35,926 nt of DNA from Treponema sp. (GTDB lineage Bacteria > Spirochaetota > Spirochaetia > Treponematales > Breznakiellaceae), in the NCBI GenBank assembly GCA_031254315.1, contig JAIRUQ010000002.1:1-35926 (forward strand), given 5' to 3'. The notes beneath the pieces were generated by a model. The model made no database searches and was not told the origin of the DNA. It saw only the letters and a program-made list of their open reading frames with translations. This document shows, piece by piece, positions 963-34,364 of this stretch (the first letter of the stretch is position 1; each line of letters begins with the position of its first letter). The position numbers and the translations under genes are program-made.

Positions 963-2768
963 TCACTCATCCCGCGACTTTAGCACCGCTAAAAACGCGC
1001 TCTGCGGCAGTTCCACATCGCCGACCATTTTCATGCGTTTTTTGCCCTCTTTTTGCTTTTCGAGAAGCTTGCGTTTGCGCGTAATGTCGCCGCCGTAGCA
1101 TTTGGCGAGTACGTCCTTACGAAGAGCGTTTACGGTTTCGCGCGCTATTACGTGACTGCCAATTGAGCCTTGAATCGGAATCTTAAACTGCTGGCGTGGG
1201 ATTTCATCACGCAGACGCTCGCAGACCTTTCTCGCGCGGTCGTAGGCATTGTCTTTGAATACAAGCTGAGAAAGAGCGTCTACAGGTTTGGCGTTAAGGA
1301 GAATATCGAGTTTTACAAGTTCCGTAGGCTTGTAGCCTGAAATATCGTAATCAAATGACGCATAACCACGGCTTATGCTTTTTAAGCGGTCATAAAAATC
1401 AAATAACACTTCGGAAAGCGGCATATCGTAGATCATCTCAACACGTTTTTCGTCAAGGTAGGTCATGTTTGTTTGTACGCCTCGTTTTTCAAGACAGAGA
1501 GTCATTATGTTTCCAAGATAATCTGTGGGAGTAATTACAGAGGCGCGTATGTAAGGCTCTTCCGCGCCGGCAATCCGTCCCTCATCGGGGTAGTCCATCG
1601 GGTTGTCAATCATTAGCTCTTCACCGTCCCTAATGAACACCTTGTACTTTACGGACGGGGCGGTAAAAATTACCGATTGATCAAATTCACGCTCCAAGCG
1701 TTCCTGAATGACTTCAAGGTGTAAGAGACCTAGAAAGCCGCATCGGAAACCAAACCCCAAGGCGGCGGAAGAATCTTTTTCGTAGATGAGCGAAGCGTCG
1801 TTTAGTTTGAGTTTTTCCATGCTTGTCCTGAGTTCTTCATAATCGTTAGAGTCAACAGGGTAGATAGAAGAAAACACAACGGGTTTTACTTCGCGGAATC
1901 CGGACAGGGCGGAAGAGCAGGGATTGTCCGTACCTGTTACAGTGTCGCCCACCCGTACGTCGCTTACGGTTTTTATTCCCGCAATTATATAGCCGACATC
2001 TCCTGCGGAAAGCTCTCCTGTCTCAACAAGCGCGAGCTTAAAAACCCCTGCGGTTTCAATTTCATAAACGGAGTTATTCGACATAAAAGAAATTTTCATT
2101 CCTTTTTTTAATTTTCCGTCAAAGATACGCAGATGCACCACAACTCCGCGGTAGGGGTCGTAGTGGCAGTCAAAAATAAGTGCGCGTAACGGAGAAGAAG
2201 GATCGCCTGTAGGAGAAGGAATACGGCTTACAATAGTCTCGAATAACTCGTCAATTCCAACGCCCTGACGCGCGGAAACTAAAACAGCGGTTTCAGCGTC
2301 CAGTCCGAGGTCTTTGTCAATCTGCTTTTTTACTCGTGGAATGTCTGCGGCTTGCATGTCTATTTTGTTGATTACGGGGACTATTTCAAGATTGTGTTCA
2401 AGAGCAAGATACATATTGGAAAGAGTTTGCGCCTGTACCCCCTGAGTCGCGTCAACCAGAAGGAGCGCGCCTTCACAGGAGTTAATTGCGCGGCTCACCT
2501 CGTAACTAAAATCGACATGACCGGGGGTATCAACAAAATTAAGCTCGTATTCAATACCGTCAAGCGCGGTGTAAGGAATGGTAACAGCCTGGCTTTTTAT
2601 TGTGATACCGCGCTCACGCTCAATGTCCATGTTGTCCAGTATCTGATCCTTAAAATTGCGATCATCAACGAGCTTGGCTTTTTGTATGAGCCTGTCGGCG
2701 AGCGTAGACTTGCCGTGATCGATGTGGGCGATAATGCAAAAGTTACGAATATTTTTAGTCAGTGCCAT
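963..2768 (-). CDS. lepA: Elongation factor 4 (LepA), ribosome back-translocating GTPase
   Basis: LepA is a ribosome-bound translational GTPase that promotes back-translocation or remodelling of stalled ribosomes. From the chosen ATG the protein has about 601 residues, the normal family length. G1 AHIDHGKST is at 14-22, the switch I region RERGITIKS at 51-59, G3 DTPGH at 80-84 and G4 NKID at 134-137. The EF-G-like domains and the Lys/Arg-rich LepA C-terminal domain (ending near [16 protein letters not shown] and the terminal LKSRDE) follow. A longer frame could begin at a TTG at 2804, but that TTG is the -35 element of a promoter (TTGAGG-17-TATAGT) and the extra 12 residues are not family-like, so ATG 2768 is preferred. 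No Shine-Dalgarno site precedes it; the -10 box ends 7 nt before the ATG. It lies downstream of the LRR gene on the same strand. Confidence 0.97.
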
Positions 2769-2804
2769 TGAACAAACTATATAGGGTTTGCGGGAAAACC
2801 TCAA
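2769..2804 (-). promoter_or_regulatory. Leaderless promoter of lepA
   Basis: Read on the minus strand, TTGAGG (2804-2799), a 17-nt spacer and TATAGT (2781-2776) are followed by only 7 nt before the ATG of lepA. A start 7-9 nt after the -10 box would fall on or next to the initiator A, giving a leaderless mRNA. No purine-rich Shine-Dalgarno motif is present. The -35 overlaps the stop codon of the LRR gene. Confidence 0.55.
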
Positions 2805-4555
2805 GTAGAAGGAGCGGCTTTGCTCTTCTCAACAAGGCGGCGTACCGCTTCTGTCGGATTAATCATTTTTGAGACTGTAGGCGGGTAATGCAAAACAGCC
2901 GCCCAGCAAATATGGTCGTAGACATCGCGGCTAAAGCGCTTTTTGAATTCTTCTGTATTAAAATTGTTAAGAAAATCAGGATAGTGGTTGTGAAGAGCCG
3001 CTTCTATACATATTTGTATGTATTCACTGTCGGTTAAAAGGTCGGTTTTTATTAACTTAAATACACGCCCGATTTCTGAACTTCTCGCGGCTTCCATGCA
3101 AATACGGTAATAAACGCCCTTTCCAAATGATTTGGGATCGATAGTCTCCAAAGCAAAACAAGTTTTCCTGACCGCCGCGATGCAAAGTTCGGGGTAGTAG
3201 GGAGTGTTGGATAATTTCAAAGTATCGACATATTTTAACGCATGCGGATTTTCATTTACCGCGTTAAGACAATGTTTGGCGTAAGCAGAAGGGTCTGTTA
3301 CAGCTGTGTCCTTAAGAGAGCGAAGCCTTTTTACCATCTGCCTGTGCCCCTGTCCTTCGCATAAAAATTCAATCTTCTGTCCGTTAGCGGCTAATGCCTT
3401 GAGATTTTCACTAACCGCAGTAAGTTCATTCGGTCTAAAAACATTTTCTTCTATATTTAGAACAGAAAGATTTTTTAACGTGAAAATCGCCTTCGGAAGT
3501 TTTTCCAGCAAATTATCGTAAACATGAAGTTTATCAAGGCTTTGCAAGCCCCCTATTTTTTCGTCTATTGAAGAAATGCCTGTACTGCCCAGTTCAAGAA
3601 TTTTCAATTTTGAAAGATTATAAATTGACGGAGGAATATCAACTACCATGTTACCTGCAAATGAAAATTCCTGCAAATCAACCATGTTCATAAAAATATT
3701 GGGTATTTCGTTTATTTTGAACTGACTTCCCAATAAACAAAGTCTTTCAAGTTTAGAAAGACCTGATATCGAATCAAATATATTTCCTGTTATGGGCAAA
3801 TGCCGCAGTTCAAGCTCTTTTAGCCCTTTTAGCGTTGAAATATTTTTATGCCCGTCTCCGACCGCGACTCCTGACAGCCTTAAAGATTCCATATTGGGGC
3901 AGGTAGAGAGTATCTTCGCGGCTTTTTCAAGGTTAAAAGTTTTTTCTGTTTTATGGAAAGGGTCTGTAACGCTCATTTTTTTTAGAGCAGGATGTTTGCT
4001 GAAAGAATCCGGCAGTTCAGGGGCAGTCCCGTCTTCAAATTTTAACGCAAATGTTAGTTCTTCAAGACTTTTCATAGAGCCAAGATTCGCAGGCAAAGCG
4101 ACAGTTGAGTAAATATCAAAAGCAAGCGTTTTTAAGTTTGGCATGGAAGGCACGCTGTCCGGGACTGTCCATTCTTTGTTTATCCGTAAATGTAAGTTCT
4201 CAAGTTTTTCCGCGTTAAAGATTTCAAGGGGAAAACTTGAAAGTTCATTGCAACAGCAGGAAAGGGTGCGTAAAGCCGGAAGGGATGATAAAAAGCCGGG
4301 TATTTCTTTGACTTTGGTGTGGGAAATATTTAAAACTTCAAGCTGTTTGCACTCGGCTAAAATTGACGGGATTTCCTTAAATGAGCTTTGATTGTCAAGG
4401 TTTATTTCCTTAACCGTATCTTTTACCTGAGATATACGGTTGATGATGTCGTCCATATCTTTGCAGAATATGCCCTCAGAGGCGATGCCGAGATCGGGGG
4501 CTTCGTTCTTCCAGTGAAGGTCAAGCTTTTCAGAGCTGTTTTTCGCGTCGGGCAT
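2801..4555 (-). CDS. Leucine-rich repeat protein with C-terminal DUF4116-like helical repeats
   Basis: The 584-residue product has no signal peptide or membrane segment, so it is probably cytoplasmic. Residues about 45-380 carry repeated LxxLxxLxLxxNxL units with IP or LP at the turn (for example [15 protein letters not shown]), typical of bacterial/ROCO-like LRRs that form a curved protein-binding solenoid. From about residue 410 the repeats change to helices of the form YxxICxxAxxxxxxAL, resembling DUF4116-type repeats; this second assignment is by eye. No catalytic domain is visible, so a scaffold or effector-like binding role is an inference. The stop codon overlaps the -35 of lepA. The first ATG is used; no Shine-Dalgarno site precedes it and a -10 box lies 8 nt upstream. 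The next in-frame ATG is at 4456. Confidence 0.85.
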
Positions 4556-4592
4556 ATTTAGTTATAATATCTTAATATTGTCAAATAGTCAA
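4556..4592 (-). promoter_or_regulatory. Promoter of the LRR-lepA unit, apparently leaderless
   Basis: On the minus strand TTGACT (4592-4587), a 17-nt spacer and TATTAT (4569-4564) are followed by 8 nt and then the ATG at 4555. An overlapping TATAAC lies 6 nt from the ATG. No Shine-Dalgarno motif exists in the short gap, so the mRNA would begin at or within a base or two of the start codon. Confidence 0.55.
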
Positions 4593-4606
4593 TAATGTAA
4601 TAGAGT
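4578..4606 (+). promoter_or_regulatory. Probable promoter of the aconitase-family gene
   Basis: TTGTCA (4578-4583), a 17-nt spacer and TAGAGT (4601-4606) face the downstream gene. They leave a short leader carrying the ribosome binding site GGAGG (4627-4631) 4 nt before the ATG at 4636. The site overlaps the divergent LRR promoter. Confidence 0.4.
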
Positions 4607-4635
4607 AGACTTTTATAGAAGATTTTGGAGGACAA

Positions 4636-6900
4636 ATGGTCGAATTATTTAAGGGCGGAGCCTATCTTGTCAATGGGAAGGAAATTATCGCCGATGACGA
4701 AGGCTCTGACGCGAAGCTGAAACAGCTTGGCGTGTCTGTTTCAAAGGAGCAGGCAAGAAGGGGGACGATTTCACACGCTATTCTTTCTGCCCATAACGCG
4801 GGCGGCGATGAGCGTAATCTTACGCTTAAATTTGATTCTCTTGCTTCCCACGACATTACCTATGTGGGCATAATTCAAACGGCGCGGGCGAGCGGAATGG
4901 ACAAGTTCCCTCTGCCCTATGTGCTGACCAACTGCCACAACACTCTTTGCGCGGTAGGCGGAACAATCAATCAGGACGATCATGTCTTCGCTCTTTCCGC
5001 CGCGCGTAAGTACGGCGGTATTTATGTGCCGCCGCATCTCGCTGTTATTCACAGCTATAACCGCGAAATGATGGCTGGCGGCGCAAAGATGATCCTCGGC
5101 TCTGACAGCCACACACGTTACGGCGCGCTTGGCACTATGGCTGTCGGTGAAGGCGGCGGCGAACTCGCAAAACAGCTTGTCGGCAGAACCTACGATATGC
5201 CATATCCTCAGGTGGTCGGTATTTTTCTTGAGGGTGAACTTTCAAAGGGAGTAGGACCGCAGGATGTTGCGCTTGCGATTATCGGGGAAGTTTTTAAGAA
5301 CGGTTATGTGAAAAACAAAGTTATGGAATTTGTGGGGGACGGTATTGCGAAGCTGAGCGTTGATTTCCGCAATGGGATTGATGTAATGACGACTGAGACT
5401 GCGTGCTGGTCTTCAATTTGGAAAACCGATGACAAGATAAAAACATATCTTAAGGAGCGAGGAAGGGCAGGGGATTACAAAGAACTCAAGCCTGCTTCTG
5501 CCGCCTACTATGACGGATTTATCAAGATCGATCTGTCTAAAATTGAGCCGTGTATTGCGCTTCCGTTTCATCCAAGTAATGTGTTTACAATTAAAGAACT
5601 GCAAAAAAACGCGAAAGATATTTTCGCTAAAATAGAGGAAGAAAATAAAAGTTCCGGTATCAATCTTAACTTAGGTTTGAAATGCCGCGATGGAGGAGTC
5701 TGGGCGGATCAGGCTATAATTGCCGGATGTTCGGGGGGAATTTTTTCAAACATCATGGCGGCGGCGGATATATTAAAAGGAGCGCAAACAGGTAACAGCA
5801 ATTTTTCCCTTAGCGTCTATCCTGAAAGCCAGCCTACTTATCTTGAGTTAGTGAAAAACGGAGCGGTAGAAACATTTATGAAAGCCGGAGTCCTTGTAAG
5901 GGAAGCATTCTGCGGTCCCTGCTTCGGAGCCGGAGATACGCCAGCCAATAACGAGCTATCAATCCGTCATGTTACTCGCAATTTCCCAAGCCGCGAAGGC
6001 TCCAAGCCAAACGACGGGCAAATTGCTTCTGTCGCTTTAATGGACGCGCGCTCTATTGCCGCTACAGCTGTAAATAAAGGAAAAATTACCTCTGCGGCAG
6101 ATATTAACATAAAATATACTAATTATAAGTTTTCCTTTTACAATAGTATTTATGAAAAGCGCGTATACAACGGAGTGGGAAAACCACAAACGGAAGCTGA
6201 ACTTGTCTTTGGTCCTAATATTAAAGACTGGCCCGCAATGCCAGCTCTTGCAAATAATCTTCTTGTAAAAGTAGCGAGTTTCATTACCGACCCCGTAACC
6301 ACGACCGATGAACTTATTCCGTCCGGGGAGACTTCTTCGTACCGCTCCAATCCGCTAAAACTGGCTGAATTTACATTAAGCAGAAAAGACCCTCTCTATG
6401 TACAGAAAGCAAAAGCAACGCAGGCTCTTGAGGAAAAGAGGCGAAGCGGCGCTATTGACGGAGAAATAGCGTCAGTGTTTGAAAAAATTAAAAACATTTC
6501 TAGTTGTTCGGGGATAGGGGCTTCAGATATCGGGATAGGAAGCGCGATCTTTGCCCGTAAGCCCGGCGACGGCTCGGCGAGGGAGCAAGCCGCTTCCTGT
6601 CAGCGTGTTCTTGGCGCGAGCGTAAACTTCGCTCTTGAGTACGCTACAAAACGTTATCGTTCCAACCTTATAAACTGGGGAATTTTGCCGTTTATCATTG
6701 ACGATGAAAAAGCCCTTTCTGTTGACAGCTATGTTTTCTTTCCCGATATTAAAACCGCTATTCAGGAGAAAAGGGAAAAAATCACCGGCTATGTGTTAGG
6801 TGAAACCGTAAAGGAAATAAACGCGACGTTAGGCGAACTTACAGACGCGGAGAGGCAGATACTGATTGACGGCTGTTTGATCAATTATTATGCGAAGTAG
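4636..6900 (+). CDS. Aconitase-superfamily hydratase (YbhJ-like), [4Fe-4S] enzyme
   Basis: The 754-residue product is a single-chain member of the aconitase superfamily, close in length to the E. coli YbhJ type, whose substrate is unknown. SDSHTRYG (156-163) matches the aconitase active-site signature. The three cluster-binding cysteines are preserved: C365 in AGCSGG, and C426 and C429 in CGPCFGAG. The C-terminal swivel domain has GDGSAREQAA (644-653), corresponding to the catalytic Ser-Ser-Arg segment of aconitase with one Ser replaced by Ala. Together these indicate an active dehydratase/isomerase acting on a carboxylic acid, but the family does not fix the substrate. A canonical GGAGG ribosome binding site supports the ATG. 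The gene appears monocistronic, with a divergent promoter upstream and repeats downstream. Classical aconitate hydratase is the main alternative. Confidence 0.85.
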   Translation: MVELFKGGAYLVNGKEIIADDEGSDAKLKQLGVSVSKEQARRGTISHAILSAHNAGGDERNLTLKFDSLASHDITYVGIIQTARASGMDKFPLPYVLTNCHNTLCAVGGTINQDDHVFALSAARKYGGIYVPPHLAVIHSYNREMMAGGAKMILGSDSHTRYGALGTMAVGEGGGELAKQLVGRTYDMPYPQVVGIFLEGELSKGVGPQDVALAIIGEVFKNGYVKNKVMEFVGDGIAKLSVDFRNGIDVMTTETACWSSIWKTDDKIKTYLKERGRAGDYKELKPASAAYYDGFIKIDLSKIEPCIALPFHPSNVFTIKELQKNAKDIFAKIEEENKSSGINLNLGLKCRDGGVWADQAIIAGCSGGIFSNIMAAADILKGAQTGNSNFSLSVYPESQPTYLELVKNGAVETFMKAGVLVREAFCGPCFGAGDTPANNELSIRHVTRNFPSREGSKPNDGQIASVALMDARSIAATAVNKGKITSAADINIKYTNYKFSFYNSIYEKRVYNGVGKPQTEAELVFGPNIKDWPAMPALANNLLVKVASFITDPVTTTDELIPSGETSSYRSNPLKLAEFTLSRKDPLYVQKAKATQALEEKRRSGAIDGEIASVFEKIKNISSCSGIGASDIGIGSAIFARKPGDGSAREQAASCQRVLGASVNFALEYATKRYRSNLINWGILPFIIDDEKALSVDSYVFFPDIKTAIQEKREKITGYVLGETVKEINATLGELTDAERQILIDGCLINYYAK

Positions 6901-7046
6901 GTGAACAATGAGCAATGAGATGGCGGCGCATGAACAATATGCGGCGTGTTTTCCCAATGAGCAATGAGCAAGGGAATACTATTATTTCTTTGCTCATTGA
7001 TTCTTCTCTTCTTCTTTGTGCCTTAGTGCCTTTGTGTGAATATTTT
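6901..7046. repeat. Repeat-rich spacer: AATGAGC repeats plus a solo FTTTGTGCC-type arm
   Basis: Between two converging genes lie two near-identical copies of CAATGAGCAATGAG (from about 6906 and 6955), an inverted pair CAATGAGCAA (6962-6971) / TTGCTCATTG (6990-6999), and a T/C-rich arm at 7014-7046 reading CTTTGTGCCTTAGTGCC onward. That last arm is nearly the same as the right arm of the inverted element at 12210-12242. No gene is supported here; short frames in this stretch come from the repeats. Confidence 0.65.
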
Positions 7047-7079
7047 GCGGAAAATGTTTGTGTGCAATCTGCTAGGCTT

Positions 7080-12270: not shown

Positions 12271-12308
12271 TTGAACAACTGCGTTTGTTTTCGGTATACT
12301 TAATTATT
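12271..12308 (+). promoter_or_regulatory. Leaderless promoter of the PHP-cupin-ligase operon
   Basis: TTGAAC (12271-12276), an 18-nt spacer and TATACT (12295-12300) are followed by 8 nt and the GTG start codon at 12309. No Shine-Dalgarno site lies in the gap. Initiation 9 nt after the -10 box would place the 5' end of the mRNA at the GTG. Confidence 0.6.
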
Positions 12309-13100
12309 GTGGCTTATCTATACGAAACGCACCTTCACACAGTACCGGCAAGTAAATGCGCGGTCTCGACAGGCGCGGATTATATTGCGCCTTACATCGA
12401 CAAGGGCTATTCAGGAATAATCGTAACGGATCATTTTTTTAACGGGAATACGGCGTTATCCAGAAAACTTCCGTGGAACGAATGGGTAAATCGTTTTTAT
12501 AGCGGCTATGAAAACGCAAAGGCAGAAGGCGAGCGCAGGGGCTTGAATGTTTTTTTTGGATGGGAAGAAACATTTGACGCCTGTGATGATTATCTTGTTT
12601 ACGGACTTGATAAAGACTGGCTTCTCGCCCATCCCGAATCTCGCAATTGGACAAGGGGAGAGCAGTACCGGGCGGTAAGGTCAGCAGGCGGTTGTGTTGT
12701 TCAGGCTCACCCGTTCAGGCAGAGGTACTACATTCCACGTGTTATTCTTTCTACAGGATGCGTGGACGGAGTAGAAGCTGTCAATGGCGGACATGAAGAT
12801 GCCTCCCATGACGCGCTTGCTTACCGTTATGCGAAGAAACTAGGCAAGACAATTACCGCCGGATCAGATATTCATGACGCTTCCCTTGTTTATAACGGTG
12901 AAATTTTTGGAGTGTATCTGAACAAAAAAATTAACAGTATTTTAGATTATGTTAACATAATTTTGAATAATGAAATTGCAGGGCTAAAAACTGATGAAGA
13001 GCGTATTAATTTTAACGGTACAGAAAGAGTACAAATTCCTGTAGAAATACGGGATAAGGATGATAGAATTACCTCAAAGGATTTGAAGGAGTTTTTATGA
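12309..13100 (+). CDS. PHP-domain metal-dependent phosphoesterase
   Basis: Starting at the GTG at 12309 the protein has 263 residues, and all PHP metal-site motifs are in order: ETHLH (H8, H10), VTDHF (D41, H42), FGWEETF (E86/E87), QAHPF (H134) and GSDIHD (D187, H189). PHP proteins of this size hydrolyse phosphoesters such as histidinol phosphate, 3',5'-nucleotides or small nucleic acid fragments with a trinuclear metal centre; the substrate is not set by the sequence. An upstream TTG (12258) would add 17 residues, but that reading passes through the promoter elements and pushes the conserved strand YLYETHLHT away from the N terminus, so the GTG is preferred. The stop overlaps the next start by 4 nt (ATGA), so it is the first gene of a three-gene operon. 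Confidence 0.85.
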   Translation: MAYLYETHLHTVPASKCAVSTGADYIAPYIDKGYSGIIVTDHFFNGNTALSRKLPWNEWVNRFYSGYENAKAEGERRGLNVFFGWEETFDACDDYLVYGLDKDWLLAHPESRNWTRGEQYRAVRSAGGCVVQAHPFRQRYYIPRVILSTGCVDGVEAVNGGHEDASHDALAYRYAKKLGKTITAGSDIHDASLVYNGEIFGVYLNKKINSILDYVNIILNNEIAGLKTDEERINFNGTERVQIPVEIRDKDDRITSKDLKEFL

Positions 13101-17107: not shown

Positions 17108-17142
17108 TTGACACACCCCCAACATCCGTTCTAAACTAAGCC
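17108..17142 (+). promoter_or_regulatory. Leaderless promoter of the nfeD-SPFH unit
   Basis: TTGACA (17108-17113), an 18-nt spacer and TAAACT (17132-17137) are followed by only 5 nt before the ATG at 17143. No Shine-Dalgarno motif is present. Confidence 0.5.
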
Positions 17143-17610
17143 ATGTTGTTCGATTTTGGTTATGTTGGTCCTCACTGGATTTGGGTGGGCGTTACCATAC
17201 TCATGGCGATTATAGAAGGGCTTACTTTGGGTCTTACGACCATTTGGTTCGCGCTGGGGGCGCTTGTCATGGTCTTCCTCTCCTTCCTGCCCATTCCCTT
17301 TGTTTTTCAAGTGTTGATTTTCCTTGTTATCTCAGGTGTTCTGCTTATATTTACTCGCCCCATTGCTCTTAAAAAATTCAAGACCGGCAGGGTAAAAACC
17401 AATGTTGACAGTCTGGTCGGAAAACATGCCCTTGTAACAAGACAGATCACGGAGTTCGATAAGGGAGAAGTAAAGTTGAGCGGTCAGATTTGGTCAGCCA
17501 GATCGGAAGACGGTCAGACCATAACCGAAGGAACCAAGTGTGAAGTGGTTCGTATTGAAGGTGTTCAGGCAATCGTTCGCGTTTTTAACGAGAACGAAAA
17601 AATAATTTAA
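17143..17610 (+). CDS. NfeD-like membrane protein (short form)
   Basis: The 155-residue product has hydrophobic segments between about residues 13 and 70 (probably two to three helices, WIWVGVTILMAIIEG and VFQVLIFLVISGVLLIF). A soluble C-terminal OB-fold domain follows (about 90-150: SLVGKHALVTRQI, GEVKLSGQIWSA, GTKCEVVRIEGVQAIV). NfeD proteins pair with SPFH/stomatin-type proteins in membrane microdomains. Here the SPFH gene follows 10 nt downstream, the conserved gene pair. A role in membrane protein quality control or lipid-domain organisation is known for the family; the specific client is unknown. Confidence 0.9.
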   Translation: MLFDFGYVGPHWIWVGVTILMAIIEGLTLGLTTIWFALGALVMVFLSFLPIPFVFQVLIFLVISGVLLIFTRPIALKKFKTGRVKTNVDSLVGKHALVTRQITEFDKGEVKLSGQIWSARSEDGQTITEGTKCEVVRIEGVQAIVRVFNENEKII

Positions 17611-20064: not shown

Positions 20065-20408
20065 AGATACATTCCGCTCTGCTGTGCTAACCTAATTATC
20101 AACACAGTTACGCTGTGCTTTACTGTGTATACCGTGCAGTCATGGGGGCGCGCTGTTCGGACTAAAGTCCTCACGCTTTTTTCATCTTTATTACTTTTCT
20201 TGTGCGGCGTGCTGTTCGGACTAAAGTCCTCACGCTTTTTTCATCGCGTTGACTTTCATCAACGCCACGCCGTGTTGATTTATTCATCTGCACAGCTTAA
20301 CGCTGTGCATACTTGGGCGGACGCCGTGTTGATTTATTCATCTGCACAGCTTGACGCTGTGCATACTTGGGCGTATACAACAACAACAATCTATGATATA
20401 ATCTCTTC
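20065..20408. repeat. 344-bp hairpin and direct-repeat array upstream of murG
   Basis: No gene is supported. The stretch contains a hairpin CACAG-TTACG-CTGTG (20103-20117); two identical 35-nt direct repeats (20152-20186 and 20211-20245), each with the hairpin GGAC-TAAA-GTCC followed by CACGC and six T; a hairpin GCGTTGA-CTTTCA-TCAACGC (20246-20265); and two 53-nt tandem repeats differing at one base (20267-20319 and 20321-20373), each with the hairpin GCACAGC-TTRAC-GCTGTGC. A short open frame running through it is repeat-derived. Confidence 0.85.
20374..20402 (+). promoter_or_regulatory. murG promoter, -10 box 6 nt from the start codon
   Basis: A perfect TATAAT (20397-20402) ends 6 nt before the ATG of murG at 20409. 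The best -35 at the right spacing is the weak TATACA (20374-20379, 17-nt spacer). There is no Shine-Dalgarno sequence, so a leaderless transcript is expected. Confidence 0.5.
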
Positions 20409-21527
20409 ATGGTAAGTATCGCTTTTACTGGAGGAGGGACGGGAGGGCATATTTACCCGGGTCTTGCGGTAGCGGCGCAGTTAAAAAAACTGCTTCTGGG
20501 CATTGAATTCCGCCTGTTCTGGATTGGCTCCTCCTCCGGTATGGACATGACGCTGGTAAAAGAAGCAGGGATTGAATTCTTCGGCGTGCCTTCGGGAAAA
20601 CTAAGACGCTATTTTTCTCTGCGAACAATTGTTGATTTCTTTAAAGTTGTTGGCGGATTCTTCGCGGCGCGTAAAATCCTTAAAAAACAGAAGGCAGTTC
20701 TGCTTTTTTCCAAGGGCGGTTTTGTAAGCGTACCGCCATGCGCGGCGGCATCTTCACTGCGTATCCCTGTTTTTACGCATGAGTCCGATTTCAGTCCGGG
20801 ACTTGCGACAAGACTCAATACACGTTTTGTTATGCGCACAAAAGGGACGATTTTTACCGCTTATGAAGATACTGCGCGTTTTTTCCCGCCGGCTGTTCGT
20901 AAGCGCGTAACGGTAAGCGGTAACCCTGTGCGTGATATTTTTAGAAAGGCTGACAGCGCGAAGGGCAGGGCGTTTCTTGGACTTGGAGAGGAGGCGCGTA
21001 TCCTTCTTATTCTTGGCGGCAGTCAGGGCGCGTTGCAAATAAACGAACTTGTCAGGGCCGCTCTTGTACAACTGACAGAAGTTTACACTGTGGTACATCA
21101 GAGCGGTCCCAATCTCGCTTGGGACATTCCGGCAAACGATCGATACAAACCCTATCCGTACATAAAAGAAGAACTACCCCATGTAATGGCGGCGTCTGAA
21201 TTGGTGATGGGCAGAAGCGGAGCCGGCGTTTGGGAATGGGCTGTTTTAGGCAAGCCCATGCTGTTAATTCCGCTAAGGGGAGCGGGGACAAGAGGAGATC
21301 AGGTTGAAAATGCCCGTTTTTTTCAATCTGCAGGAGCCGCGCTTGTGTTAGGTGAAGATGTAACGGCGCAATCTCTGGTTCAAGCTGTTAATTCACTGGC
21401 TCGGGACGATGAAAAGAGGCGTAGTATGGCAGAAGCGTCGGCGAAAATAGGAGAGAAGGACGCATCGGAGGCGATAGCGCGGATTTTAGCGGATAAATTG
21501 AAAGATTTTATGGGAGAAAAAGGTTGA
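20409..21527 (+). CDS. murG: UDP-N-acetylglucosamine transferase MurG
   Basis: MurG transfers GlcNAc from UDP-GlcNAc to lipid I, giving lipid II, on the inner face of the cytoplasmic membrane. The 372-residue protein has the first G-loop FTGGGTGGHIYPGLAVA at the N terminus, the SKGGFVSVPPC segment, THESDFSPGLATR, the second G-loop GGSQGALQIN, and the UDP-GlcNAc-binding segment MGRSGAGVWEWAVLGKP with the following PLRGAGTRGDQVENA. The ATG is placed as in other MurG proteins, with only a few residues before the G-loop. It is the first gene of an overlapping operon: its TGA overlaps the next start by 4 nt. It is placed outside a dcw-type cell-division cluster in this window. Confidence 0.96.
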   Translation: MVSIAFTGGGTGGHIYPGLAVAAQLKKLLLGIEFRLFWIGSSSGMDMTLVKEAGIEFFGVPSGKLRRYFSLRTIVDFFKVVGGFFAARKILKKQKAVLLFSKGGFVSVPPCAAASSLRIPVFTHESDFSPGLATRLNTRFVMRTKGTIFTAYEDTARFFPPAVRKRVTVSGNPVRDIFRKADSAKGRAFLGLGEEARILLILGGSQGALQINELVRAALVQLTEVYTVVHQSGPNLAWDIPANDRYKPYPYIKEELPHVMAASELVMGRSGAGVWEWAVLGKPMLLIPLRGAGTRGDQVENARFFQSAGAALVLGEDVTAQSLVQAVNSLARDDEKRRSMAEASAKIGEKDASEAIARILADKLKDFMGEKG

Positions 21528-26707: not shown

Positions 26708-27520
26708 ATGGAGGAAAAAACAAATTTTATGTTAAAATATCCTGTTTTAATGATACATGGCGCAGGTTTTAGGGATAAAACTTTTGGTTTTATCAATTAT
26801 TGGGGACGCATTCCCGAATTATTCGAAGAACAGGGGATTGCGGTTCATTATGGCGGCACTGACGCATGGGGATCAATCGAAGAAAACGCGAGAACATTAA
26901 AAAAAAGGATAAACGACATTCTCAGTGAGACAAAGGCGCAAAAGATTAATATTATTGCACATTCAAGGGGAGGACTTGAAGCGCGTTATCTCATTAGCAC
27001 AATGAATATGGAGCATACTGTCGCTTCATTGACAACAATTTCAACTCCGCATCGTGGAGTGAAAATAATGAATATCGCTGTGGATTTGCCTGTAGGGTTG
27101 TATGAATTCTGCTCATTTTTTGTAAATGTATGGTTTAAAATGTTAGGCGATAAAAAACCTAATTTTCTTTCCAGTAGCAGACAATTATCCGAGAGATACA
27201 GCGTTATGTTTAACGAATGTAATCCCGACAAAGAAGGAGTTTATTATCAAAGTTATGCGTCAATGATGAGATTTTTTTTCAGTGATATACTTTTTTTACT
27301 TAGCTACCCTCTTATCAAATTAACCAACGGCGACAATGACGGTTTATGTCCTGTTGAATCGGCAAAATGGGGGGATTTTAAGGGTGTAATAACAACTAAG
27401 GGTATTTTGGGCATATCCCATTGCGGCATTATTGATTTATATAAAATAAATTACAAAGGAATAAACATTCCTGATTTTTATATGGGCATTGTGAAGGAAT
27501 TATCGGAAAGAGGGTTGTAA
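26708..27520 (+). CDS. LipA/acetyltransferase-like alpha/beta-hydrolase (triacylglycerol lipase type)
   Basis: A 270-residue alpha/beta hydrolase without a signal peptide. YPVLMIHGAGF (11-21) supplies the oxyanion region, S86 in the nucleophile elbow AHSRGG, an Asp in NGDNDGLCPVESAKWG (D209 or D211) and H238 in GISHCG complete the triad. The D-G-L-x-P-V-x-S pattern near the Asp is typical of the bacterial triacylglycerol lipase family I, whose members bind a metal there. Lack of a secretion signal means the substrate is probably intracellular or the signal is non-classical. It follows the DUF3592-like membrane protein by 9 nt. An in-frame ATG at codon 8 is a possible alternative start. Confidence 0.8.
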   Translation: MEEKTNFMLKYPVLMIHGAGFRDKTFGFINYWGRIPELFEEQGIAVHYGGTDAWGSIEENARTLKKRINDILSETKAQKINIIAHSRGGLEARYLISTMNMEHTVASLTTISTPHRGVKIMNIAVDLPVGLYEFCSFFVNVWFKMLGDKKPNFLSSSRQLSERYSVMFNECNPDKEGVYYQSYASMMRFFFSDILFLLSYPLIKLTNGDNDGLCPVESAKWGDFKGVITTKGILGISHCGIIDLYKINYKGINIPDFYMGIVKELSERGL

Positions 27521-27648
27521 GATATGGAATTACCTGTTTTGTGATATTAAACGACCCCTCTTTTATTTTTATGTCAGAATTGGGGTAATATTAAATCAGT
27601 TTTATGTGGAGTTGTGTGCAATGGGCTAAAATATATTGAAAATATGAA

Positions 27649-27678
27649 TTGACAAGACAGTTATTTTTGTATTATGAT
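27649..27678 (+). promoter_or_regulatory. Near-consensus promoter directly before the DMP19-like gene
   Basis: TTGACA (27649-27654), an 18-nt spacer and TATGAT (27673-27678) are followed by 6 nt before an ATG at 27685. That ATG has no Shine-Dalgarno site and would be leaderless. A second in-frame ATG at 27754 has a strong AGGAGAG site, so the same mRNA could give two products. Confidence 0.6.
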
Positions 27679-27684
27679 TTGATA

Positions 27685-28221
27685 ATGAGGTATATTTTCA
27701 TACTATTTTCGTGCTTGGTATTAATGTGTTGTTTTTCAAAAGGAGAGAATAATATGTTCTTTGGCAAAAAAATAGAGAAAATAATTAAAAACAAGAATGG
27801 ACAAGAGGCAATTATTGAAATTGATAACTTATTATCCCCAATTTTCTATAAAAATCCTGAAAAATTATCATTACCGGAAAAAAATTTTGTTTATATAGAA
27901 GAACTAGAACGTGAGGTTAATAATGGTGGCTTTGATCAGTATTTTTTTAATTCTTCAGGAAATTATGCAATGGAAACAATAAATGCCTTAAGAATTATTG
28001 AATCAAAAATATTTCTTGATTTATTAGAAAAGTCAATAAATGCATTTGCTGATGGTATTGTACCGAAAGATAGAAATGAACGACAAAGAATATTACTGGA
28101 AATTAGAAAAATTAATGAAGAATTTTGGTATAGTTTGGATGAGGAATTTTATAAATATGAAGAAGACATTCATAAATTATTAATTGATTATATAAAGAAT
28201 AATATTAAGGATTTTAGATAA
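27685..28221 (+). CDS. DMP19 (DUF4375)-like protein with two plausible starts
   Basis: The C-terminal two thirds match the DMP19/DUF4375 family: IEELEREVNNGGFDQYFFNS followed by SGNYAMETINALRIIES, then an acidic helical end. Neisserial DMP19 is a DNA-mimic protein that binds a transcription regulator; other family members are uncharacterised. From ATG 27685 (178 residues) the first 16 residues form a lipoprotein-like signal (MRYIFILFSCLVLMCC), giving an exported protein. From ATG 27754, which has AGGAGAG 6 nt upstream, the product is a 155-residue cytoplasmic protein starting MFFGKKIEKI. The first start sits 6 nt after a -10 box. Which one is used decides the location, and both may be used. 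The gene is AT-rich like its upstream neighbours. Confidence 0.75.
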   Translation: MRYIFILFSCLVLMCCFSKGENNMFFGKKIEKIIKNKNGQEAIIEIDNLLSPIFYKNPEKLSLPEKNFVYIEELEREVNNGGFDQYFFNSSGNYAMETINALRIIESKIFLDLLEKSINAFADGIVPKDRNERQRILLEIRKINEEFWYSLDEEFYKYEEDIHKLLIDYIKNNIKDFR

Positions 28222-28304
28222 AATGGTTTTCCCTCACCGCACATAAAAAGGCTGTAAATCTCTCAACGTCGGAGCGCATCGGAATCAGCGACTGGCAATG
28301 TTAT

Positions 28305-29123
28305 TCACAACCCAAACGCCGTGCGAAAATTCTTCTCTATTCGCGCTTCCAAGTTTTTCGCGTCAATCTTATTTCCTGCTTCACAGCGAAGTTCTGCCGC
28401 TGTTTCAATGATGAGGGGCAAATCCGCCCACTGAGAAAAATCCATTCCTCTGTGCGGCTGAAACGGAGCGTCTGTCTCTGTTAACAGTCTTTCAATGGGA
28501 AGCAGGGTGCAGGTTCTCATTGCCTGCTTGTGGTTCAGCGCGATAACATTGCCAAAGGAGAAATACGCGTTCACGCCTCTGCGCATGAGCGACTGCGCTT
28601 CCTCAAACGTACCTGACCATGAATGAAAAATGACCGATTTGCACTTTAATAATAAATCTGTTAAGTTAAAAGTTTTATGTATAGCGCGGCGTACATGAAT
28701 TACAAGCGGAAGATCGTAACGTAAGGATATTTCCGCCTGCGCAGAAAAGAGCCTGTCTTGAATAGCCTCTGTCTCTTTGAAGGCGGCATTGTATAAATCA
28801 AAGCCGCATTCGCCAATTGCCGAGAGCCTGCCTGCCTGTGCCAGAGAGTGCATAAATTCCAAACTTTCGTTTATTTCTGTCTCCGGAAACGGGTTTCCCT
28901 CAGCGGCTCTTACGGCAGGCAGTTGGGGGTGAAGACCAAAGCAGGGTAACAGCGGCGCTACTGAATCGGCGGCGGCGTTATGCGCTAATGTTTCATTATG
29001 TAAAAACTCTTTTTGTGTACACGCGCTTGCCGCCGCCAAAATCCTGAGTTTTCTTCGCTCTTGTTCGGCTTGAGGGAAAGCGTGGACAAGGTCGAAGGGG
29101 TGGCAATGAGCGTCGGTAAGCAT
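28305..29123 (-). CDS. tatD: TatD-family metal-dependent deoxyribonuclease
   Basis: A 272-residue TIM-barrel hydrolase with the TatD metal ligands in order: DAHCHPFDL (HxH near the N terminus), IGECGFDLYN (Glu), LVIHVRRA (His), IFHSWSG (His) and TETDAPFQPHRG (Asp). TatD enzymes are 3'-5' exonucleases acting on single-stranded DNA/RNA and in DNA repair or turnover. The first metal motif is HCH, where many homologues have HTH or HCH. It starts 3 nt after the mgtE stop, so the two genes are cotranscribed with mgtE first. Confidence 0.9.
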   Translation of the reverse strand: MLTDAHCHPFDLVHAFPQAEQERRKLRILAAASACTQKEFLHNETLAHNAAADSVAPLLPCFGLHPQLPAVRAAEGNPFPETEINESLEFMHSLAQAGRLSAIGECGFDLYNAAFKETEAIQDRLFSAQAEISLRYDLPLVIHVRRAIHKTFNLTDLLLKCKSVIFHSWSGTFEEAQSLMRRGVNAYFSFGNVIALNHKQAMRTCTLLPIERLLTETDAPFQPHRGMDFSQWADLPLIIETAAELRCEAGNKIDAKNLEARIEKNFRTAFGL

Positions 29124-29126
29124 GGT

Positions 29127-30470
29127 TTATAACCCAAGTACAACCTTTGCGATCGAAAAATAAATAATAAGAGAGACAGCGTCAACGATTGTGGTAAGAA
29201 GGGGCGCGGACATAATCGCAGGGTCAATTTTTAAGCGTTTGGCGAAAATCGGAAGAATACTGCCCACTGTTTTTGCCATAAGAATCGTACAGAAAAGGGA
29301 CATCGTAATTGTGAGGCACAGTTTTACATCCCTATTGTTCATAAAATAAACACGAATAAAATTAACAAATCCAAGGGCAAGTCCGCAGAGCATACCTACA
29401 CGGATTTCTTTCCATACCACCAGTAGAATATCTTTTAAGTTTATTTCACCTACCGCCATGCCGCGCACGATCAATGTTGAAGATTGAGAGCCGGCGATAC
29501 CGCCCGTATTCATAAGCATCGGGATAAATGACATAAGGATAGGCAGAACAGTCAATCCGTTTTCAAAAGTTGAAATAATAGTTCCGGTTATAGTCGCGGA
29601 AAGCATGAGGATCAGCATCCATACAAAACGGTTTTTAGCGTGTTGGAAAATGCTCGTTTTTAGATAAGTGTCTTCAGACGGAACAAGAGCCGCCATCTTT
29701 TCAATATCTTCGGTGCTTTCCTCAACGATAACGTCTACTATGTCGTCAACGGTAATAATGCCGACCAGCCGCTGTTCTTTGTCAACAACGGGCATTGCAA
29801 GTAACGCATACTTTTGAAACTGCTCCGCAATCGCTTCCCTGTCGTCGGTGGTGTAGGCAAAGACAACATTTGTGTCCATTATGTCGCCAATCCTGTCCTG
29901 AGGGCGGGAAAGCATCAAAGTTTTCGCGGAAATCGCGCCTACAAGAAGGCGGTCTCTTCGCATCACATAACAGTTGTAAATTGTTTCCTTGTTAAGCCCG
30001 ATATTGCGAATCGTGTCAAATGCTTCCCGGACTTTGTCATCTTCACGCAGATCAATATATTCGGTTGTCATTATACTGCCTGCCGAATCATCGGGGTATT
30101 GCAATATCTGATTTATCTGTTTTCGTTTTTCAGCTTTAACATTTTGCAGTATTCGCTTGACCACATTAGCAGGCATTTCTTCAATAAAATCTACCGCGTC
30201 ATCAACGAACAGTTTGTTCATGATTTCGCCGATTTCATTATCGCTTAGAGCTTCAATAATAGTCTGCTGGTGATCGATGTCTATATATGAAAAAACATCG
30301 GAGGCTATCACTTTGGGAAGTATTCTGAACAACTGGATAATTTTTTCCCTGTCCAGCTCTTCGAAAATTTCAGCTATGTCAACGGTGTTCATGTCGGAAA
30401 GCAGAATTTTTAATTTCGATATGTCCATCGAACTTTCAATGATAAGCGCCAAAATTTCTTCTTTATTCAT
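29127..30470 (-). CDS. mgtE: Magnesium transporter MgtE
   Basis: The 447-residue protein has the full MgtE plan: a cytoplasmic superhelical N domain (about 1-130), two CBS domains (about 130-255; DSAGSIMTTEYI, VGIITVDDIVDVI) that sense Mg, a plug helix, and five membrane helices. The family signature PMLMNTGGIAGSQSS is present, as is the pore Asp in APLLTTIVDAVSLIIYF. It is a Mg2+-gated channel that opens at low cytoplasmic Mg2+. A ribosome binding site AGAGGG precedes the ATG by 8 nt. The gap to the divergent asnS is only about 140 nt, and I see no M-box riboswitch in it. Confidence 0.95.
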   Translation of the reverse strand: MNKEEILALIIESSMDISKLKILLSDMNTVDIAEIFEELDREKIIQLFRILPKVIASDVFSYIDIDHQQTIIEALSDNEIGEIMNKLFVDDAVDFIEEMPANVVKRILQNVKAEKRKQINQILQYPDDSAGSIMTTEYIDLREDDKVREAFDTIRNIGLNKETIYNCYVMRRDRLLVGAISAKTLMLSRPQDRIGDIMDTNVVFAYTTDDREAIAEQFQKYALLAMPVVDKEQRLVGIITVDDIVDVIVEESTEDIEKMAALVPSEDTYLKTSIFQHAKNRFVWMLILMLSATITGTIISTFENGLTVLPILMSFIPMLMNTGGIAGSQSSTLIVRGMAVGEINLKDILLVVWKEIRVGMLCGLALGFVNFIRVYFMNNRDVKLCLTITMSLFCTILMAKTVGSILPIFAKRLKIDPAIMSAPLLTTIVDAVSLIIYFSIAKVVLGL

Positions 30471-30601
30471 AATTATACCCTCTGGCGCTTGGCGTTAAAC
30501 GGAAAATTTACCGATGCTGTAATTTTACCTCAAAAAAATATTTTGTCAATGGTTTCTGTAAAATCCGTCAAATCCCTATTCCCCATTCCGTACTCTCAAT
30601 G

Positions 30602-30613
30602 TATAATATCTCC
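30602..30613 (+). promoter_or_regulatory. asnS -10 element, 6 nt from a GTG start
   Basis: A perfect TATAAT (30602-30607) ends 6 nt before GTG 30614, which is in frame with asnS. There is no good -35 (TTCCCC at 17 nt) and no Shine-Dalgarno site. An upstream ATG at 30599 would lie within the promoter itself. Confidence 0.5.
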
Positions 30614-32053
30614 GTGTTGCCAAAATTGATAAAACATATTCTTTGCGAAACCCCAAACTCCCAAAAAACGGAAATTTTTGGCTGGGTAAGAACAAAGAGG
30701 GAAATGAAAAACCTCGTCTTTGTTGAGGTGAACGACGGTTCCTGCTTTGCCGGTATTCAATGTACCTTTGATCGGGGTGCTGGCATTGACACGCAGACTG
30801 AGGCGGCTCTCGCTGTTCTTTCGACAGGGGCTTCCGTAAAAATAACGGGGAATCTCGTTCCTTCTCCGGCTGAGGGGCAGGTGGTGGAAATTGCCGCGAC
30901 TGCCCTGATGACGCTGGGGGATGCCGCCGCTGAAAACGTAAGCGGACAAACTGCCGACCTCGATATTCAGGCGTATCCGCTTCAAAAGAAAAGGCACTCT
31001 TTGGAATTTTTGCGCGAGATTGCGCACTTGCGCCCACGAACCAACACCTTCGGCGCGGCGGCGCGGCTTAGAAGCAGAATGGCGTTCGCGATCCACCGTT
31101 ATTTTCAGGAGAGGGATTTTCATTACCTTCACACGCCGATTATTACTGCAGGAGATTGCGAAGGCGCGGGAGCGATGTTTCAAGTTACAACCCTTGATCC
31201 AAAAGAGCTTGCGAAACAGCCTGCGGATTACAGCAAAGATTTTTTTGGAAAGAAAACATTTTTGACGGTCTCAGGTCAGCTTGAAGCGGAAACCTACGCT
31301 TCGGCGATTTCGCGCGTTTATACTTTTGGTCCGACTTTCCGCGCGGAAAATTCTAACACTGCCAGACATCTTGCCGAGTTTTGGATGGTAGAGCCGGAAG
31401 TTGCTTTTGCCGAACTTGAGGATGACATGGCTCTTGCAGAAGATTTTTTGAAGTATGTTTTTAATTCTGCTCTTAACGAGTGTTCTGATGAGCTTGCGTT
31501 CTTCGACGCCCATGTCGAAAAGGGAATAATTGAAAATTTGCGACAGGTCGCAGGCGCGAAGTTTACTCACATCACATATACGGACGCGATTAAAGAACTG
31601 GAAAAAGCCGTCGCGGGAAACAGCGAGTTGTTTGAGTTTGAACCACGCTGGGGATGCGATCTTCAAAGCGAGCATGAAAAGTTTTTAACGGAAAATACCG
31701 CAGGCGGTCCTGTAATTGTTACCGATTATCCAAAAGAGATAAAAGCTTTTTATATGAAACAAAATGATGATGGCAAGACTGTCCGCGCTATGGATGTGCT
31801 TGTTCCACGGTTAGGTGAAATAATAGGCGGCTCTCAGCGTGAGGATAATTTGGAAAGACTGATTAAGCGGATGAGCGAAATGTCTTTGAAGACGGAAGAT
31901 TATTCATGGTATCTTGATCTTCGCCGTTACGGATCAGTTCCCCATTCGGGATTTGGTCTTGGATTTGAGCGGCTTTTACAGTACGTTTCAGGTTTGGCGA
32001 ATATACGGGATGTTATTCCCTTTCCGCGAGCGGTGGGACAGGCGGAGTTTTAA
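30614..32053 (+). CDS. asnS: Asparaginyl-tRNA synthetase
   Basis: A class II synthetase that charges tRNA-Asn. From the GTG at 30614 the protein is 479 residues. It has an N-terminal OB-fold anticodon-binding domain ([20 protein letters not shown]), the asparaginyl-specific catalytic core with [20 protein letters not shown] (motif 2) and EPEVAF, and motif 3 [20 protein letters not shown] plus DVIPFPR. The Asn-specific segment [20 protein letters not shown] distinguishes it from AspRS. An ATG five codons upstream is possible, but it overlaps the -10 box and has no Shine-Dalgarno site. The domain starts naturally at LPKLIKHIL. Its presence suggests Asn-tRNA is made directly here. Confidence 0.95.
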
Positions 32054-32088
32054 AAATGAGTTTGAGATGTCCAAGAAGTAAGAATTTT

Positions 32089-32158
32089 ACCACGGAGTAC
32101 ACGGAGTTTCACGGAGAAAGTAGAAGAAAACTATTGAAACTCCGTGTTCCTCCGTGGT
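32089..32158. repeat. Inverted intergenic element with CACGGAG sub-repeats
   Basis: The left arm (32089-32110) carries ACCACGGAG and ACACGGAG units about 9-11 nt apart, and is matched by an inverted right arm (32136-32158) ending CCTCCGTGGT. The pair would form a 22-bp stem with one mismatch or bulge. It lies between asnS and the carboxypeptidase gene. A short frame running through it has the repetitive product typical of such elements and is not a gene. Confidence 0.75.
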
Positions 32159-32225
32159 TGATCTTCTTTTCAGACAGCCCCAATTTCTTTGGAAATAGTA
32201 GCGACAGCGAGAAGTTAGTCATAAT

Positions 32226-33455
32226 ATGTATAAAATAATCAGTCTTTTTTGTTTTATTTTTTGCTCTCCGTTTTTTGCCTTTGCGCAGTTTTTTTCTACT
32301 CCGCCCGCGCTTGTTCCGTATCTGCAAACCGCCCCCGAAGTTATTTCAAGGTCAGCAGTCCTTATAGACGCGCGGACAGGTGCGCTTCTTTATTCAAAAA
32401 ATCCCGACGCTGAAATATGCCCTGCCTCCCTTACAAAACTGATGACAATGCATCTGGCTATGCGGGCTATTAAAGAAGGAAAAGCGTCCTTCGATGAACT
32501 TATTCCGATAACCGTAGAAAGCTGGGCGCAAAGCCAGCCGCCTCACTCAAGTTTGATGTTTCTCGCTCCCGGACAAATTGTATCATTACGCGAAATATTA
32601 CTAGGTCTTGCTGTCGCTTCCGGCAATGATGCCGCCGTTGCCGCCGCTTTGCGCCTTGCTCCAAGCATGGAAGAGTTTGCGAAATTGATGACTGCGGAAG
32701 CAAGGAGCATGGGACTGTCCGTTACGCGATTTGCTGAATCATCGGGTATTTCGCAGGAAAACATAACAACAGCGCGGGAATTTGCCGCTTTCTGCCGCCG
32801 TTACTTAATTCTGTACCCTACAAGCCTTGAAGATTTTCATTCGGTTCCCGTTCTTTCATATCCTATGGCGGCTAACGTACAGGAAGGAGGAAGAAATGCT
32901 CCCGGCACAATTACACAGGACAATCGCAATGTACTTCTAAAAAGTTTCCCCGGAGTCGACGGGCTAAAAACAGGATTTATTGAAGAATCAGGTTACAACA
33001 TCGCGCTGACAGCGCAGAGGGAACAAACGCGTTTTCTTTTGGTAATTCTAGGCGCTCCTTCGCAGAGGGGAGGAGCGTATATTCGTGATACGGACGGCGC
33101 AAACCTTCTTTCATGGGCGTTTGATAATTTTAAGACTGTCTATCCTCAAATAGGCAAGATTGAAAACGCGCGTTTATGGAAGGGCAGGGAAGACACCGCG
33201 GAATTTGTAATCTTTGGCTCACCGGAGTTTACCGCTCCTGTTAGCCGCGCTTCTTCCCTTTACTTTGAGACATCAATTCCTAAAAGACTAATCGCCCCTA
33301 TTCCGGCAGGCGCGCCTGTAGGAGAGCTTGTAATCTCTGATGAATACGGAGAATTGCGCCGTTTACCGCTTTATGCCGCGAAAAATTACGAGAAGGGGAA
33401 CATTTTTAAGCGGATATGGCATTCAATTTGTCTCATATTCAGCCGTAAAACTTGA
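32226..33455 (+). CDS. D-alanyl-D-alanine carboxypeptidase (low-molecular-mass PBP)
   Basis: An exported peptidase S11-type enzyme that trims the terminal D-Ala from peptidoglycan pentapeptides. The 409-residue protein has a signal peptide (cleavage near AFAQF, about residue 20), catalytic S68-x-x-K71 in PASLTKLMT, SGN at 132-134 and KTG at 248-250 within DGLKTGFIEESGYN. A C-terminal PBP5-like beta domain follows (about 305-400) and the end KRIWHSICLIFSRKT is an amphipathic, membrane-associating helix, as in DacA/DacC proteins. Start ATG 32226 has only a weak GAGAAG upstream. The promoter of the next gene follows closely. Confidence 0.9.
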   Translation: MYKIISLFCFIFCSPFFAFAQFFSTPPALVPYLQTAPEVISRSAVLIDARTGALLYSKNPDAEICPASLTKLMTMHLAMRAIKEGKASFDELIPITVESWAQSQPPHSSLMFLAPGQIVSLREILLGLAVASGNDAAVAAALRLAPSMEEFAKLMTAEARSMGLSVTRFAESSGISQENITTAREFAAFCRRYLILYPTSLEDFHSVPVLSYPMAANVQEGGRNAPGTITQDNRNVLLKSFPGVDGLKTGFIEESGYNIALTAQREQTRFLLVILGAPSQRGGAYIRDTDGANLLSWAFDNFKTVYPQIGKIENARLWKGREDTAEFVIFGSPEFTAPVSRASSLYFETSIPKRLIAPIPAGAPVGELVISDEYGELRRLPLYAAKNYEKGNIFKRIWHSICLIFSRKT

Positions 33456-33480
33456 CAAAGAACCGGAATATTCTCATAAT
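33452..33480 (+). promoter_or_regulatory. Near-consensus leaderless promoter of the LuxR-type regulator
   Basis: TTGACA (33452-33457), a 17-nt spacer and CATAAT (33475-33480) are followed by 5 nt and the ATG at 33486. No Shine-Dalgarno motif is present. This is the best -35/spacing match among the leaderless candidates in the window. Confidence 0.65.
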
Positions 33481-33485
33481 CAGCT

Positions 33486-34364
33486 ATGGATGTTTTTAAG
33501 GTAAATATAATAATATGGATTTTCCTCTACAGTTTTTCCCTCGTCCATATTACATTGTTTGCGTACCTATATATAAAAAATAAAAGTAAAGTAGAATTAC
33601 TTTATTTAATAGTTTTAATAAATATATTTTTGTTAGCTGTCATAATTACAATATCTCTTGTACTCGAAATACATACTTTCATTCCGTTATTGGTCAATGC
33701 TATATTGTCAGTGTATATTACTATTCCTATGTGGGGCTATTATTTATTTGCTCTTGATAAAAAATATTTTAAGAACATATTTATATTGGTTGGTACAGAA
33801 GTGATAATCGATAATATTTTGATGGCGCAGAATGAACCTCGCTTTTTCGTTATTTTATATATCTTAAGAGTTGTTTTTTATATTTTATTGGCTATTCCTG
33901 TATTTGTAATAAAGAAGAATAAATACGAAAAAGACTCAATAGAAGGGAAAATGCAGAAGGTTACAAAAATAACCGCTATTGTGTTTATTATATTTATGGC
34001 TTCACTTGTTCCTATATCAGTATTTATTTTTGAACTAACGAATACGGCTTCACTGTTTTGGGGTGTCTTTACCGTAGCGTATCAAATACCGGGGCTGGTC
34101 TACTGCAAGAATATGCTGATAAAAAAAGGCGCAATATCCGGCAAAAAGGGAATATCATCGTTGACCAAGCGGGAGAATGAGGTTGCCACGGCTATTTGTA
34201 ACGGTTATAAATACGAAGAAATAGCGGAAAAACTGCAGATTTCCGTTTCGACCGTTAAAACACATTCGTATATAATTTACAAGAAATTAGGCATAAACAA
34301 CAACCGTGAATTAATGCAAATCTTCATTGAAAACCCAGATGGTGATGCCGATAAGCCATCATAA
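33486..34364 (+). CDS. Membrane-anchored LuxR-type transcriptional regulator
   Basis: The 292-residue protein has about seven hydrophobic segments (residues 8-30, 38-60, 64-90, 98-115, 120-143, 160-182, 188-210) and then a cytoplasmic LuxR/GerE helix-turn-helix (224-280: SSLTKRENEVATAICNGY and EEIAEKLQISVSTVKTHSY). There is no receiver domain, so the membrane part is presumably the sensor and the protein is a one-component regulator acting from the membrane. Downstream lie two promoters with identical tandem upstream boxes (34379-34470 and 35502-35571), which are natural candidates for its binding sites. The gene is AT-rich, especially the membrane portion. Confidence 0.88.
   Translation: MDVFKVNIIIWIFLYSFSLVHITLFAYLYIKNKSKVELLYLIVLINIFLLAVIITISLVLEIHTFIPLLVNAILSVYITIPMWGYYLFALDKKYFKNIFILVGTEVIIDNILMAQNEPRFFVILYILRVVFYILLAIPVFVIKKNKYEKDSIEGKMQKVTKITAIVFIIFMASLVPISVFIFELTNTASLFWGVFTVAYQIPGLVYCKNMLIKKGAISGKKGISSLTKRENEVATAICNGYKYEEIAEKLQISVSTVKTHSYIIYKKLGINNNRELMQIFIENPDGDADKPS

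Follow-up and report, generated by a model that had tools for sequence, protein, structure and literature searches.

Promoters whose -10 box lies adjacent to an open reading frame (ORF) have been shown in Deinococcus-Thermus to produce leaderless mRNA, and a -35 box loses its effect there when it stands at the wrong distance of 22 bp (PMC12340547). The same study scanned species across the bacterial domain, and its main text contains neither 'Treponema' nor 'Spirochaet-'. Leaderless genes have been predicted in six of 18 Spirochaetes genomes, at 1.8–6.9% of the genes (PMC3160421), and differential RNA sequencing (dRNA-seq) of Leptospira interrogans yielded ∼440 mRNAs with leaders shorter than 10 nt (Zhukova et al. 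2017, PMC5243855), in a study that itself considered the greater part of its in silico sigma-70 sites doubtful. In the analysis by Nakagawa et al. (PMC5397173), the mean of the component tied to leaderless or S1-led genes is negative for six Spirochaetes, and tprL of T. pallidum is described as leadered, with a predicted ribosome-binding site (PMC7864442). Here we describe eight genes of an uncultured Treponema sp. in which a sigma-70-like -10 box ends 5–8 nt before the start codon and a Shine-Dalgarno (SD) site is absent. They lie in a stretch of 35,926 nucleotides, referred to as the window, which is one of the 127 contigs (JAIRUQ010000002.1) that make up an assembly of 3.10 Mb (GCA_031254315.1). 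Seven relatives identified in a named collection are Treponema metagenome-assembled genomes (MAGs), whose isolate codes suggest an origin from gut, probably termite gut.

The layout exceeds chance in this genome, its -35 boxes keep the spacing of a promoter, and it is conserved at orthologous genes. With a probability that we put at roughly 0.87, these sigma-70-type promoters are set such that transcription starts at the start codon or within ∼0–4 nt of it, so that the mRNAs would be leaderless or nearly so. According to this model, which is derived from sequence, a sigma-70-type promoter would abut the start codon in a minority of genes, chiefly those heading a unit; the start of transcription would lie at the usual distance from the -10 box, and the SD-less mRNA would be translated from a 5'-terminal AUG or GUG. 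Sigma-70 transcription usually starts about seven bases after the -10 box, so a gap of 5–7 nt would place the start on or beside the first base of the codon. The eight promoters are the following.

2766..2804 (-): lepA (elongation factor 4); -35 TTGAGG 2804-2799, 17 bp, -10 TATAGT 2781-2776, 7 nt, ATG 2768-2766
4553..4592 (-): gene of a leucine-rich repeat (LRR) protein; -35 TTGACT 4592-4587, 17 bp, -10 TATTAT 4569-4564, 8 nt, ATG 4555-4553
12271..12311 (+): PHP-like gene; -35 TTGAAC 12271-12276, 18 bp, -10 TATACT 12295-12300, 8 nt, GTG 12309
17108..17145 (+): nfeD; -35 TTGACA 17108-17113, 18 bp, -10 TAAACT 17132-17137, 5 nt, ATG 17143
20374..20411 (+): murG; weak -35 TATACA 20374-20379, 17 bp, -10 TATAAT 20397-20402, 6 nt, ATG 20409
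27649..27687 (+): DMP19-like gene; -35 TTGACA 27649-27654, 18 bp, -10 TATGAT 27673-27678, 6 nt, ATG 27685
30602..30616 (+): asnS; -10 TATAAT 30602-30607, 6 nt, GTG 30614; -35 without consensus (TTCCCC at 17 bp)
33452..33488 (+): gene of a LuxR-type regulator; -35 TTGACA 33452-33457, 17 bp, -10 CATAAT 33475-33480, 5 nt, ATG 33486

These promoters had been proposed from the letters of the window (hereafter the original prediction). When the window was re-read, the start codon, the -10 hexamer and the spacings matched exactly at each of the eight genes, as did the -35 hexamer at the seven for which one had been given, which bears out the claim of a -10 box at 5–8 nt throughout. The claimed lack of SD sites also holds, as GGAG, GAGG and AGGA are absent 3–12 nt before the start in all eight genes. 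No 16S was found in the assembly. The gene products match Pfam LRR families, Pfam NfeD, Pfam DMP19, the NCBIfam asparagine--tRNA ligase (AsnS) and Pfam GerE (the LuxR-type regulator). The PHP label of the original prediction stands only in part: the product has no Pfam match at 1e-4, but it has a weak, sub-cut-off NCBIfam match to a CehA/McbA-type hydrolase.

The original prediction had also proposed a genome-wide comparison of the distances between -10 box and start codon. Such a comparison was made on about one fifth of the genome (40 genome stretches plus the window, 613 kb), and it upheld the excess over shuffled sequence. Gene calling used a self-trained coding model, and the choice of start relied on coding potential alone, so that upstream motifs were unable to bias it. 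This gave 464 genes, 451 of them usable, with 266 non-SD and 185 SD genes. A -10 score of at least 4 at 5–8 nt is present in 43 of the 266 non-SD genes, against 10.8 expected (windows at 20–59 nt: mean 10.8, maximum 13), and in 0/185 SD genes against a mean of 9.4, a zero that is partly forced because the box and the SD site would occupy the same bases. At a score of at least 5 and a distance of 5–7 nt, a box is present in 20/234 non-SD genes, where 100 shuffles give 2.7 on average and at most 7, and in 0/172 SD genes, where the shuffled average is 1.8. Shuffling within columns, which preserves the base composition at each position, gave for the non-SD genes a mean of 10.6 and a maximum of 20 in 100 shuffles, compared with the 43 observed. 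The excess persists when the window is excluded (37/246 vs 10.0), when only genes of at least 200 aa are counted (38/206 vs 8.6), and under a broader definition of the SD site (41/204 vs 7.9 for non-SD genes; 2/247 vs 12.3 for SD genes). A -35 box at 16–18 bp accompanies 28 of the 43 candidates, compared with six of 43 at 22–24 bp and with 42 of 207 other -10-like sites. The start codon is ATG in 40/43, and 38 of the 42 candidates with a known neighbour are first in their unit, compared with 93/177 SD genes. Candidates are more frequent in the window (6/28 called genes; asnS and the DMP19-like gene were missed by the caller) than elsewhere in the sample (37/423). In a 200 kb stretch of Escherichia coli K-12, passed through the same pipeline, no excess is observed: 7/78 non-SD genes vs 7.2 at the loose cut, and 3 vs 3.2 at the stricter one.

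As orthologous loci we used the top matches in a set of 59 genomes, up to 30 per search and with the genome's own loci excluded (20 more were added for lepA), and their starts were projected from the window protein; by this choice the ortholog sets lean to close relatives. Among the lepA orthologues, the -10 box ends at 5–8 nt in 43/49 (25/27 in the same genus and 18/22 in other families of the order), and within the order an SD site is present in 2/49. The corresponding numbers are 27/29 for asnS and 26/28 for murG. The nfeD orthologues have 16/26 at 5–8 nt and 22/26 at 5–11 nt, the PHP orthologues 12/29 and 22/29, and the LRR orthologues 6/13 and 9/13. Other 4-nt windows hold 0–8 loci in these gene sets (set sizes 5–49). 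For trxB, chosen as an SD-led control, the box lies at 5–8 nt in 1/29 orthologues and at 5–11 nt in 4/29, with an SD site in 25/29 and with 1–14 loci in the other windows. Twelve of the 29 trxB orthologues (L256-L285) have a -10-like box 13–16 nt before the start, often with the SD site in between, an arrangement that implies a predicted leader scarcely longer than the SD site itself. A leaderless lepA beyond the order was also considered and is not supported: of the 68 genomes from outside the order that had a match, 41 loci were taken, and 7/41 have the box at 5–8 nt, which is at background (other windows 4–12). With 43/49 inside the order and background outside it, the set could serve as a natural experiment on the reasons for which a gene would remain leaderless.

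Lone hexamer matches are frequent, as is evident from the 10.8 genes expected per 4-nt window at the cut used, and they could in principle have been picked by selective reading of AT-rich intergenic DNA. For the set as a whole this explanation is very improbable: it is contradicted by both kinds of shuffle, by the shifted windows, by the -35 counts at a wrong spacing, by the E. coli control and by the orthologues, and for lepA, asnS and murG it is refuted by the orthologue test. The leaderless interpretation of the original prediction is supported by the distance test in the genome sample, the E. coli control and the orthologue test together, and among the individual genes it is firm for lepA, asnS and murG as predicted leaderless genes, and good for nfeD. 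The PHP and LRR genes fit less tightly: at their orthologues the spacings often extend to 11 nt, with expected leaders of roughly 0–4 nt. The boxes at the LuxR-type and DMP19-like genes may be due to chance.

It is also conceivable that the promoters are real and close, with a start a few bases upstream of the codon, such that leaders of 2–8 nt are translated by another non-SD mode of initiation and the mRNAs are not truly leaderless. This alternative fits the spacings of 8–11 nt at many PHP, nfeD and LRR orthologues, which correspond to leaders of ∼1–4 nt, and for two mapped starts of T. denticola the distance to the codon is 14 nt in one case and 124 nt in the other (PMC9481697). We regard it as unlikely, since the commonest distance between -10 box and start in the genome sample is 6 nt, and in most orthologues of lepA, asnS and murG the gap is 5–7 nt.

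The starts in the sample were chosen on coding potential alone, and the call for asnS fell on TTG 30626. Nevertheless, it is highly improbable that the start codons are wrong and that SD-led starts lie further downstream. The LepA protein matches the NCBIfam lepA equivalog from residue 5 and MurG matches TIGR01133 from residue 1, and in most lepA, asnS and murG orthologues the start codon is found at the same residue. When ten candidates of the genome sample were picked by eye, eight received an NCBIfam name, with matches that begin at residues 1–11, and two had no match. The named candidates are murC, isocitrate dehydrogenase, glycerol-3-phosphate dehydrogenase, pyruvate kinase, hisS, DNA polymerase I, ispE and segregation/condensation protein A. 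Family matches from residues 1–11, like those of MurG and LepA, leave little space for an SD-led start downstream.

Several observations weigh against initiation at or next to the codon, or against parts of the evidence for it. The LuxR-type gene is weak, with the -10 box at 5–8 nt in 2/5 orthologues, and for the DMP19-like protein a search of the 58 other genomes at 1e-10 found no orthologue. The nfeD, PHP and LRR orthologues are often at 8–11 nt. In the window itself, asnS is without a -35 consensus and the -35 box of murG is poor. Called starts are imperfect: in an annotated stretch of E. coli, 38/41 genes were found and 29/38 starts were exact. A positive control, the megaplasmid of Deinococcus radiodurans, is weak (7/72 vs 2.8, with a background maximum of 7). 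To these may be added the partly forced zero in SD genes, and the excess is smaller without the SD split (43/451 vs 20.2). Finally, an expectation-maximization (EM) mixture model was run on four genomes, initialized with matrices from E. coli and with all spacings equally weighted. In 4/4 genomes it converged on 17 bp for the spacer and 6 nt for the distance, but its leaderless weight for real upstream regions does not exceed that for shifted ones and lies below 11/12 shuffles. The weight was discarded as an estimate of the share of leaderless genes (own genome: 0.19 real, 0.35 shifted, 0.25–0.31 in three shuffles); as it does not discriminate, only the motif, spacer and distance of the model count.

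The share of leaderless genes can be estimated roughly, at ∼5–11% of all genes. Counted within the non-SD genes at two score cut-offs, the excess amounts to 7.1% (bootstrap 4.5–9.9) to 10.6% (7.3–14.0) of all genes, and among first genes to 10.7% to 14.1%; without the SD split it is ∼5–6% (43 minus 20.2, or 76 minus 50.6, of 451). By non-SD counting, other members of the order give 5.3–8.2% (G021, same genus), 4.4–6.5% (G037) and 8.9–9.2% (G056, GC 67%). The unsplit excess at the score-4 cut is small in G021 (23/283 vs 15.4) and G037 (22/320 vs 14.7). Non-SD genes (266/451) are far more numerous than this excess explains, and the genome encodes a protein with six S1 stretches. Both facts would suit a situation in which the proximal boxes are secondary and the main transcripts are leadered, start further upstream, and are translated through ribosomal protein S1 or an unstructured start region. 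This scheme is nonetheless improbable, as the upstream regions of murG and asnS orthologues are, by eye, much diverged while the -10 box and its distance are retained, and as the other 4-nt windows of the orthologue sets are sparsely occupied.

The claim that the genes are mostly first in their units stands for six of the eight. The LRR, PHP-like, nfeD, murG and asnS genes are first by the rule applied, and the DMP19-like gene is first by eye, starting 164 nt past a gene that ends at 27520; lepA and the LuxR-type gene, in contrast, each stand behind a gene on the same strand, at distances of 32 and 30 nt, respectively. In these two cases the preceding gene ends within the -35 box (2799-2804 (-) and 33452-33457 (+)), its TGA stop codon being part of the TTGA. 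By eye, a similar overlap of stop codon and -35 box is seen at one locus of the same genus (L111) and one of another family (L145), with poorer spacing or -10 boxes. As the original prediction had noted, an in-frame TTG lies inside the -35 box of lepA (2804) and of the DMP19-like gene (27649). As a general annotation trap this feature was rejected, since an open in-frame start is found in 1/43 candidates of the genome sample (lepA). A different trap is present at asnS, where an in-frame ATG (30599) directly precedes the TATAAT box; judged by the orthologues, the start lies 15 nt further downstream, at GTG 30614. The GTG start of the PHP-like gene (12309) is kept in 21/29 orthologues (L334-L362), and GTG is used by just 30/451 genes of the sample. 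Just 5' of murG (20150-20390), two kinds of direct repeat, each in two copies, are visible by eye, with the weak -35 box at a repeat edge. Elsewhere in the window, similar 'aaatcatactttttcct' repeats, again found by eye, flank a gene on both sides (34377-34460, 35500-35560); we take this gene, from a reading by eye, to be alpha/beta-hydrolase-like.

The conservation of the layout provides the treponeme order with a concrete set of candidate leaderless genes, and it would explain part of the many non-SD genes of the order, in which gene-start and promoter annotation needs a leaderless model. Tentatively, and with considerable doubt, it may be suggested that leaderlessness in a housekeeping core, for which lepA is the clearest case, dates back to the common ancestor of the order, and that it is a selected, gene-specific property. 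If so, genes such as those for a translation factor and for cell-wall synthesis would be kept on SD-independent initiation, a route that may be sensitive to conditions in the 70S ribosome pool.

Among the matches listed from the open-licence literature, we found none that describes leaderless initiation for a treponeme. To that extent, the claim that leaderless initiation on this scale is not a described trait of treponemes stands, but leaderless mRNAs have been mapped in Leptospira and predicted in Spirochaetes. The TA-led leaderless genes of Zheng et al. (2011, PMC3160421) have the same TANNNT -10 box, ∼12 bp upstream of the start when counted from its first T. Our estimate of ∼5–11%, obtained with another method, coincides with the upper part of their range of 1.8–6.9% or lies above it; Treponema is unnamed in the main text of that study. 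Leptospira interrogans is likewise a spirochaete, of another lineage, and there the evidence consists of mapped transcripts (PMC5243855), whereas the present evidence is from DNA. In Deinococcus-Thermus, ∼30% of the ORFs have the same -10-adjacent layout (PMC12340547). The genes described here would therefore represent a known bacterial layout in a further lineage, of which at most the treponeme part appears to be unreported.

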